Below are positions 9,488 to 11,027 of a DNA stretch of 12,340 nucleotides, in pieces. Within the stretch, counting starts at the first letter, position 1; every line of letters begins with the position of its first letter. The position numbers were made by a program, and so were the translations under genes. Below the pieces are notes generated by a model. That model made no database searches. It worked only from the letters and a program-made list of their open reading frames with translations, and was not told the origin of the DNA. Source of the DNA: Thermoplasmata archaeon (GTDB lineage Archaea > Thermoplasmatota > Thermoplasmata > Thermoplasmatales > Thermoplasmataceae); contig JAJYPW010000013.1 of NCBI GenBank assembly GCA_021795055.1, forward strand, positions 1 through 12,340, written 5' to 3'.

Positions 9488-9627
9488 TGGGAGTACTGGG
9501 ATTTGAACCCAGATCTACGGGTTTCTTCCGGATCATTGTTCCAGTCAATCATCATCAAATCAGTTGACCCATAGAAAATCACGCCCTGACTGGAGCCCGT
9601 TAGGATGCCTGACTACCCCACACTCCC
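9488..9627 (-). tRNA. tRNA-Trp (anticodon CCA) with 67-nt intron
   Basis: The exons are 9590-9627 (5') and 9488-9522 (3'); the intron is 9523-9589, between positions 37 and 38. The acceptor GGGAGTG pairs with TACTCCC (last pair G-U) and the discriminator is A. The D loop has GG; the anticodon stem ACGGG pairs with CCCGT only when the intron is removed. The loop is CTCCAGA with anticodon CCA at 9591-9593, the variable loop has 4 nt, and the T arm is CTGGG-TTCAAAT-CCCAG. Spliced length is 73 nt. CCA is not encoded, and a gene for the CCA-adding enzyme lies next door. A textbook bulge-helix-bulge is not perfect: the central helix CUCC/GAAG has a C34-A mismatch, so the splice sites are assigned from the mature tRNA fold. 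Confidence 0.93.
9533..9582 (-). ncRNA. Box C/D 2'-O-methylation guide RNA within the tRNA-Trp intron
   Basis: In order on the minus strand: box C GTGATTT (9576-9582), a 12-nt guide (9564-9575), box D' CTGA (9560-9563), spacer TTTG, box C' ATGATGA (9549-9555), a 12-nt guide (9537-9548), and box D as the variant ATGA (9533-9536). Both guides have the usual 12-nt length. The D' guide pairs over 10 bp (one G-U) with tRNA positions 37-46, and the fifth base from the box falls on C39. The D guide pairs with positions 33-37 (extended to 8 bp in the unspliced precursor), and its fifth base falls on C34. A tRNA-Trp intron guiding methylation of 34 and 39 is established for Haloferax. Box C and box D are degenerate, the main caveat. 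Confidence 0.8.
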
Positions 9628-9725: not shown

Positions 9726-11027
9726 TCAGCGGAACAATCCTCTGGACATGTACCTGTCGATAAGTTCATTGTATTCGATCTTGCCGTTCGGACTTACGAT
9801 TTTAAGGGAGTTTCGCATCTTCTCAAGGCTCCCCCCAAGGCCCAGCCCGCTAAGGAAATTGCCTAAAAAGTCATCAATTTTCGTGGATTTTCTGGGAATT
9901 TCAACGTAAACCCTGTTTCCCTTCACATACGGGCCGCGCAACACACTATCGCTCTTCCACTTTTCCAGGAAATCCAGCACGTTTCCGTTATCTACGGGCG
10001 GCCCCTCATGCAATACCACTTCTGGAACAACCGAGCGATCAAATTCCACGAGGATCAGCACTTTCTTTTCCTGAAGGGAAATGGTGTCACCGATGATTCC
10101 ATACCCTTCCTTTATAGATGCCTCTTCAACTTTCCTGAGTAGCCTTAAGGCCTGGGGATACAACACGTCATCTGTTCTGTCTGGTCTGTCGATGGAGATC
10201 AGCCTGTAGACTGTTCCCCGTTCTGCCTTATGTCCATTGGTTCCTGAAACGCTCTCCGTCAGTCCCCCGTATCCTCTGGCCTTGTAGAGCCGGCAGGCCA
10301 GCTTAAATTTGGTCAGAGATTCCAGGCTGACGGCGGCTCCAGCGTTTCTCCTGCTGTCAGTGGGATCAACAATATAGACAGGGGAATCTGCGCCTGCTTT
10401 TGGATCGGCACATTCCGATAGCTTCATGTCTCCCCTGAGGGTTGCACCCATCTCGATCACTGAGTCAAAAGTTTTCTCTTTTATGATCAAGAGTTCACAA
10501 ACGTATCCTGAAAATCCTGAAGTAACCACGTCAGCCCCATAAATTCCGGATACTTTCATGAAAAGCTTCAGTTTTCTAACCTCTTTCTTTGCAGGCACCT
10601 TAAGATTTTCATTCACGTACCTGGTGTGAAGAATAGTTCTGTCAACAGAGCTTATTTTAGTCTCACCGGGAGAGATGCTGTAACACGGCACAATATCCGT
10701 GCTGATGCCTTGGTATTCTCCGGAAATATAAGGGTGTTCTGCGTACCTAGCTCTGCCTCCGGGAAGCACCTTCTTTGCAATCTTCATCCCGATCTGTTCT
10801 ATCTGTTCTTCAGTGTATTCCTTTGAAAAAGCGATGAAGATATCGAGATCGGATCCCTTGAGGTTGGTTCCCTTTGCAACAGAACCCACAAGAATTGGTT
10901 CTGCCTTTATCCCAGACTTGCCGGTTTCTGAGCTGATGGCATCTGCAATCTGCCTGTAGGCGTCCATATAACGAAGCGTTTCTGCTTCGGTGGGCGTGCT
11001 CTTTTCCAGCAACTCTTCAAGGTTCAT
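9726..11027 (-). CDS. cca: Archaeal class I CCA-adding enzyme (tRNA nucleotidyltransferase)
   Basis: This enzyme adds CCA to tRNA 3' ends without a nucleic-acid template. Its 433 residues match the family's usual length of about 440. The nucleotidyltransferase motif VGSVAKGTNLKGSDLDIF (48-64) supplies D60 and D62; the third carboxylate is D111 in STDIVPCY. This matches the catalytic triad known from the archaeal enzyme (Glu/Asp, Asp, Asp). The RRNAGAAVSLESLTKF stretch and the KFMKVSGIYGADVVTSGFSG-type region fit the central and body domains; C-terminal segments such as GPYVKGNRVYVEIPRK agree with the family. ATG 11027 overlaps the NAC stop by 4 nt (ATGA), so the two are translationally coupled. 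The neighbouring tRNA-Trp lacks an encoded CCA and needs this activity. Secure. Confidence 0.96.
   Translation of the reverse strand: MNLEELLEKSTPTEAETLRYMDAYRQIADAISSETGKSGIKAEPILVGSVAKGTNLKGSDLDIFIAFSKEYTEEQIEQIGMKIAKKVLPGGRARYAEHPYISGEYQGISTDIVPCYSISPGETKISSVDRTILHTRYVNENLKVPAKKEVRKLKLFMKVSGIYGADVVTSGFSGYVCELLIIKEKTFDSVIEMGATLRGDMKLSECADPKAGADSPVYIVDPTDSRRNAGAAVSLESLTKFKLACRLYKARGYGGLTESVSGTNGHKAERGTVYRLISIDRPDRTDDVLYPQALRLLRKVEEASIKEGYGIIGDTISLQEKKVLILVEFDRSVVPEVVLHEGPPVDNGNVLDFLEKWKSDSVLRGPYVKGNRVYVEIPRKSTKIDDFLGNFLSGLGLGGSLEKMRNSLKIVSPNGKIEYNELIDRYMSRGLFR

Follow-up and report, generated by a model that had tools for sequence, protein, structure and literature searches.

The tRNA-Trp intron of a Thermoplasmata archaeon as a probable dual box C/D guide RNA for C34 and C39 of its own tRNA

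Can the intron of a tRNA gene guide the modification of the very tRNA that it interrupts, and would it do so before it is removed? The question is raised by a tRNA-Trp gene on the minus strand of a 12,340-nt stretch of DNA from a Thermoplasmata archaeon (the whole analysed stretch is called the window below). Judging from sequence comparison, we put a probability of roughly 92% on the reading that its intron is a dual box C/D guide RNA for the 2'-O-methylation of C34 and C39, with C34 most likely modified before splicing.

The pre-tRNA-Trp intron of Haloferax volcanii is reportedly such a box C/D guide, in the work of Clouet d'Orval in 2001 and Singh in 2004, and stand-alone archaeal C/D box sRNAs have a layout like that of the window's guide. 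The Haloferax device is proven according to PMC2584109, PMC4090602 and PMC11408192. As described there, the H. volcanii guide shares with the window's the tRNA-Trp(CCA) host, the C/D and C'/D' boxes, the targets 34 and 39 (predicted in the window) and probably bulge-helix-bulge splicing, and differs in intron length (67 nt in the window vs 103 nt) and at position 39 (C vs U). The same situation is found in the pre-tRNA-Trp of at least 29 archaea according to PMC2584109. The Pyrococcus tRNA-Trp intron sRNA, called sR50 in PMC7994747, has the same host tRNA, in which C34 and C39 are predicted targets in P. furiosus (PMC7668247); it comes from another lineage and is likened to the window's intron by description. 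The stand-alone sRNAs for rRNA share the box layout and, as in PMC7089733, the fifth-base rule, whereas the window's guide is intron-encoded and has its own tRNA as target. A table of PMC6313347 assigns Cm34 and "Um39 (or Cm39)" to L7Ae, Nop5, fibrillarin and the intron, and PMC7668247 places Cm34 in the tRNA-Trp of S. acidocaldarius and notes that it had been reported before for H. volcanii and T. kodakarensis. C39 as a target is already in print, in PMC6313347 and, as a prediction, in PMC7668247. The window's intron guide is the known device of Haloferax and others, to which we add co-variation evidence that sharpens how the device must work. Our limited literature search recognised no account of this co-variation, or of the C34 mismatch described below, in Thermoplasmata.

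Gene, boxes and guides in the window

The splice sites were placed by sequence comparison, and the intron coordinates given by an earlier sequence-only reading of the window, 9523-9589, proved exact to the base. The features are the following:

9488..9627, minus strand: tRNA-Trp(CCA) gene (G1 = 9627, A73 = 9488)
9590..9627, minus strand: 5' exon, G1 to G37 (G37 = 9590, C34 = 9593)
9523..9589, minus strand: intron, 67 nt, between G37 and A38, with the box C/D guide RNA inside
9576..9582, minus strand: box C, GTGATTT; its U at position 6 can pair with A1 of box D
9564..9575, minus strand: D' guide TCTATGGGTCAA; its fifth base, G, faces C39
9560..9563, minus strand: box D', CTGA
9549..9555, minus strand: box C', ATGATGA
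9537..9548, minus strand: D guide TTGACTGGAACA; its fifth base, G, faces C34, and its pairing spans the 5' splice site
9533..9536, minus strand: box D, ATGA
9523..9532, minus strand: 3' strand of the inner stem and of the putative bulge-helix-bulge; the A at 9527 opposes C34 as a mismatch
9488..9522, minus strand: 3' exon, A38 to A73, CCA end not encoded (A38 = 9522, C39 = 9521)
9726..11027, minus strand: archaeal CCA tRNA nucleotidyltransferase gene (TIGR03671, 364 bits vs a cut-off of 281), a neighbour outside the device

The intron reads TCAGGGC, box C (GTGATTT), 12 nt, box D' (CTGA), 4 nt, box C' (ATGATGA), 12 nt, box D (ATGA) and TCCGGAAGAA. This is the spacing that the sequence-only reading had described, with guides of about 12 nt and the boxes in order, and 2 of 200,000 dinucleotide-shuffled versions of the intron show this layout. 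The fifth-base assignment of the D' guide to C39 and of the D guide to C34 is likewise borne out by pairing. The D' guide forms 10 bp with positions 37-46 of the spliced tRNA (guide bases 3-12, one G-U) and 9 bp with the precursor (38-46), so that just one pair (C3-G37) needs the exon junction; the earlier statement that the C39 guide pairs with spliced tRNA across the junction is true by this one pair, and the precursor offers 9 bp anyway. The D guide forms the 8 pairs claimed for it with the precursor (U33 to intron base 3), all Watson-Crick, followed by an additional U-G at intron base 4, vs 5 bp with the spliced tRNA. Among base-shuffled guides, 161 of 20,000 reach the 10 bp of the D' guide anywhere in the spliced tRNA, and 29 of 20,000 reach 9 bp, as for the D guide, anywhere in the 5' exon plus 8 intron bases.

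On the window's minus strand Rfam has a single match, sR3 (RF01133), which lies inside the intron and is aligned over 42 nt with D', C' and D in register; by our reading of the alignment, the two guides in the sR3 consensus both seem able to pair with tRNA-Trp. The match scores 17.4 bits vs a gathering score of 41, and the intron is therefore not filed under sR3. Folding energies are uninformative for both the pre-tRNA (z -1.39) and the intron (z 0.34, no better than shuffles). The spliced tRNA has 73 nt, and its acceptor, D, anticodon and T stems are all able to pair; the cloverleaf is not the thermodynamic fold of this sequence and is therefore assigned by comparison. With the bacterial code, ARAGORN called no tRNA gene here, and of the 24 matches that the Rfam tRNA model has in the same genome, none falls on the window's contig; these misses are not evidence against the gene.

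The genome to which the window belongs (a 0.9-Mb assembly, 62% complete) contains a match to fibrillarin and one to Nop5. The gene of the CCA-adding enzyme lies about 100 nt upstream of the tRNA-Trp gene, which lacks an encoded CCA, on the same strand. The nearest relative, isolate YP2.bin70, has a 99% identical pre-tRNA and the same neighbour (L010/L065), with 88% protein identity in the CCA-transferase. The adjacency is local, since this neighbour was seen at 2 of 55 loci, the window's own included, and in 2 of 68 named stretches; at one further locus (L113) the CCA-transferase gene is about 2 kb away.

Co-variation among relatives

By BLAST, the pre-tRNA has matches in 49 of 61 genomes, the window's own included, and a pattern for the 5' exon matched 68 stretches in named genomes, mostly Thermoplasmata, Thermoplasmatota or Thermoplasmatales by title, including Ferroplasma acidarmanus, Thermogymnomonas acidicola, I-plasma and E-plasma. 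A covariance model built from 17 pre-tRNAs had hits with E up to 0.001 in 386 of 400 genomes of the class, which is no count of tRNA-Trp introns, since many weak matches are other tRNAs. From 134 fetched sequences, 132 (122 distinct, the window's own included) were parsed, L176 (not tRNA-Trp) and L183 (second intron) being left out beforehand. The set was hand-picked for family spread, identical sequences are retained in row counts, and family labels were entered by hand; the shuffle statistics ignore kinship. Counts of guide pairing and of the splicing helix leave out L161 and L128 (n=130), those of the D' guide leave out in addition L223, L162, L163, L170 and L171 (n=125), and those of the kink-turn leave out L161, L128 and seven rows of family f15 (n=123), with L223, L228, L162, L163 and box C of L046 assigned by hand. 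L310-L316 and L318 were read outside all counts, and L314 among them is not a tRNA.

All 132 parsed sequences have G37, A38 and C39. The sequence-only reading had singled out the window for a C rather than a U at position 39; the C is there, and it is usual for the class rather than peculiar to the window. CTGGA, the pairing partner of U33-G37, occurs in 131 of the 132 introns (all but L161) vs 531 of 6,600 base-shuffled introns, and is followed by NNGA at the place of box D in 124 of the 131. The spacing from C' to D is 12 nt in every row with a recognised C' among the 119 parsed by script. The comparison of introns across Thermoplasmata for compensatory changes, which the earlier reading had suggested, reveals co-variation at C6:D1 of the kink-turn, base 10 of the D guide and base 3 of the D' guide. 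Pair 27-43 of the anticodon stem is mismatched in 12 of the 132 tRNAs (L024, L030, L031, L033, L034 and seven others of family f1).

In a box C/D kink-turn, the sixth base of box C is paired with the first of box D (C6:D1), and the fifth with the second (C5:D2), usually as U-U. Canonical boxes give G-C at C6:D1, whereas the window has U6 and A1, a Watson-Crick pair as well. Such a pair is found in 115 of 123 rows, as U-A, G-C, C-G or A-U. The distinct family combinations number 36, and 28 of them pair (shuffle mean 18.3; none of 20,000 shuffles reaches 28). Slid pairings are found in fewer rows (C5:D1 in 86, C7:D2 in 61, C7:D1 in 23 and C6:D2 in 6 of the 123). At C5:D2, U-U occurs in 103 rows and a Watson-Crick pair in 15, and co-variation is weaker (10 of 36; 350 of 20,000 shuffles). 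The eight rows unpaired at C6:D1 are L156, L199, L215, L219, L221, L222, L238 and L242; outside the count, A-A is present in L312, L313 and L316 (f17) and in L318 (f16), and the pair is kept, as read by eye, in L310, L311 and L315. Boxes C and D of the window had been called degenerate. They are indeed off consensus, and they are not simply degenerate, given a Watson-Crick C6:D1 that co-varies across families; as far as the sequences tell, they are compensated, not decayed. This suggests that box C/D motifs may drift far from consensus yet keep the kink-turn pair, and that consensus-based searches would miss such cases.

The D guide was located by CTGGA, which imposes the pairing of its bases 4-8, and this pairing is therefore not counted as evidence; the free positions are bases 9 and 10 of the D guide and base 3 of the D' guide. 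Both bases of the D guide are paired in all 130 rows, base 9 with intron base 1 and base 10 with intron base 2, the latter as G-C, A-U, G-U, U-A or U-G. All 34 distinct combinations at base 10 pair, vs a shuffle mean of 27.5, and none of 5,000 shuffles reaches 34. Further into the intron, base 11 is paired with intron base 3 in 121 of 130 rows, which is not above shuffles (795 of 5,000), and base 12 pairs with intron base 4 less often than shuffles do. The pairing run of the D guide is 8-10 bp on the precursor and 5-6 bp on the spliced tRNA in all 130 rows. Intron base 2 is under a second constraint, its pairing with intron base -7 in an inner stem (30 of 35 combinations vs 26.3; 38 of 5,000 shuffles), and the pairing with guide base 10 persists in all 12 rows in which that stem pair fails, so selection seems to act on a guide duplex that exists before splicing only. 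The co-variation between guide and intron thus supports a C34 guide that would act on the unspliced precursor.

The D' guide was found by searching for GG(T/A) ahead of the D' box, which imposes the G at base 5 opposite C39 in the 125 rows, and this base is likewise not counted. The free base 3 has a pairing partner in the final base of the intron in 111 of 125 rows. Of 32 distinct combinations 28 pair, vs a mean of 18.3 in shuffles, and none of 10,000 shuffles reaches 28; in much of the class the duplex thus reaches into the intron. This class-wide co-variation points to the precursor as the probable substrate for position 39 too. Base 3 is also able to pair with the invariant G37 in 117 of 125 rows; within the window's genus the intron ends in A, and the C at base 3 can therefore pair with G37 of the spliced tRNA alone. 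Bases 7 and 10 are modestly above shuffles in their fit to the tRNA (107 and 88 of 5,000, respectively), while no co-variation above shuffles was found for bases 8, 9, 11 and 12 with tRNA positions 42, 43, 45 and 46, or for base 2 with intron base -2 (1,686 of 10,000).

The splicing motif and the order of events

The bulge-helix-bulge was read in a register of two 3-nt bulges, which sets C32, U33, C34 and C35 opposite intron bases -3 to -6. In this helix C32 is paired in 130 of 130 rows, U33 in 127 and C35 in 121, vs 37 for C34. In the other 93 rows C34 is mismatched and faces A or U. By family, 21 of 29 have mismatches only, 7 have G only and 1 has both. The central helix comprises 3 pairs in 105 sequences and 4 pairs in 25, and the window, with C-A at C34, has 3 of the 4.

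Both the anatomy of the intron and the comparison with its relatives support the claimed dual C/D guide for positions 34 and 39. We infer that L7Ae, Nop5 and fibrillarin would assemble on the two kink-turns (C/D and C'/D'), and that the D guide would position C34 and the D' guide C39 for 2'-O-methylation, giving Cm34 and Cm39. C34 would most likely be modified on the unspliced precursor, because the D guide duplex spans the 5' splice site. After methylation, the splicing endonuclease would cut the bulge-helix-bulge and release the intron, and the freed intron would probably be a circle able to act in trans. Such a scheme may serve as a concrete model for the ordering of RNA-guided methylation and tRNA splicing on one molecule, in a rare intron with a known job that is here extended through one class of archaea, where co-variation shows which pairings are kept.

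The C34 mismatch may give this order a further meaning. The D guide forms its duplex over the 5' splice site, and its base 10 co-evolved with base 2 of the intron. Pairing of the guide would thus be mutually exclusive with the splicing motif, and a checkpoint of methylation before splicing can be imagined, though we would sooner bet against it than for it. The weak helix at C34 would let the guide win first, and in lineages that lose the methylation proteins the intron would shrink to a short, plain one. That the mismatch serves the order of events is what we infer from its position; if the checkpoint is true, the splicing helix owes its weakness to a mismatch placed exactly where the methyl group is to go.

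Exceptions among relatives and rival explanations

One genome of family f2 (G037) has a tRNA-Trp gene (L161, 1501-1588) with a plain intron of 15 nt and no guides. Fibrillarin and Nop5 were not found in this 86%-complete genome; fibrillarin was found in the other 6 of 7 genomes searched and Nop5 in the other 18 of 19. The methylation proteins may have been lost in this lineage, of which one incomplete genome is no proof. A loose pattern for a stand-alone C34 guide matched 16 of 16 genomes lacking the long intron and could not be distinguished from chance; a stricter pattern gave one hit, in G037, which was dropped because it sits, by eye, in an apparent coding frame.

The exceptions in families f14 and f15 concern the rest of the device. 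In f14, where a pattern search matched 6 of 8 genomes, six sequences (L320-L325) keep the C34 guide and carry a different D' guide with no fit to position 39. This D' guide is nearly constant within each genus and may therefore have a new target; in g51, nine of its bases match a conserved stretch of 16S rRNA, a candidate for that target. In f15 (L164-L167 and L169-L171) the C34 guide string is intact, box C is unrecognisable in five rows and the D' guide in two, D'/C' read CGGA/TGACGA in five of the seven, and Nop5 is present in both genomes searched. A hairpin-like stretch was seen in the box C region of f15. The tRNA-Trp of g25 (G043, G046 and G049) and of G041 was recognised neither by BLAST nor by the model, and is possibly split or otherwise rearranged; Nop5 is present in this set. 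In G043, with 41 tRNA matches, ARAGORN called genes in 37, none of them with anticodon CCA (L280 is unclear), and called no gene in L284, L305, L308 and L309.

Could C34 be the sole maintained target, with the D' guide a drifting passenger that is irrelevant for position 39? The C34 guide string is present in 131 of 132 introns, vs a D' guide that goes unrecognised in 5 of 130 rows and differs in the six f14 sequences, and the D' run on the spliced tRNA is 4-6 bp in 46 of 125 rows. For P. furiosus, PMC7668247 cites predicted methylation at C32, C34 and C39 of tRNA-Trp, and only Cm34, Am38 and m22Gm26 were detected, the predicted C39 methylation not being among them. The co-variation of the free base 3 of the D' guide with the last intron base (28 of 32 combinations vs a mean of 18.3) and the 10-bp D' duplex of the window speak against such drift, and we regard a single maintained target as unlikely.

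Still less credit, in our view a slim chance, goes to an intron that is maintained for folding linked to splicing, or as a free RNA acting in trans on another target, with the match to its own tRNA secondary. In Haloferax, deletion of the intron leaves viability unaffected (PMC11408192 and PMC7714728), tolerated removal is taken in the latter to suggest that the intron is not maintained for its sRNA, circular tRNA-Trp introns are reported in PMC9014305 and PMC7714728, and the D' guides of f14 point elsewhere. Against this, both guides fit their own tRNA at the two known positions of the device and co-vary with the precursor. A chance likeness of a conserved intron to a C/D RNA would accommodate the sR3 match below its gathering score and an intron that folds no better than shuffles. 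We consider it negligible in view of a layout found in 2 of 200,000 shuffles, four Watson-Crick types at C6:D1 and the co-variation at C6:D1 and in both guides, which speaks strongly against chance. The dual guide for C34 and C39 remains the preferred reading.

Several single loci show further variation. An Altiarchaeota-labelled MAG (L128, 1661-1794) has a C34 guide before a CTGA box, here in the first half of the tRNA-Trp intron. In G166, contig C10 carries two tRNA-Trp genes (L185 and L186) 1.8 kb apart; the acceptor and T stems of the second contain mismatches, and it resembles a copy in decay. The T arm of tRNA-Trp carries a second insertion in L183 and L315, and probably also in the three f17 sequences (L312, L313 and L316), which are cut off at the T arm.
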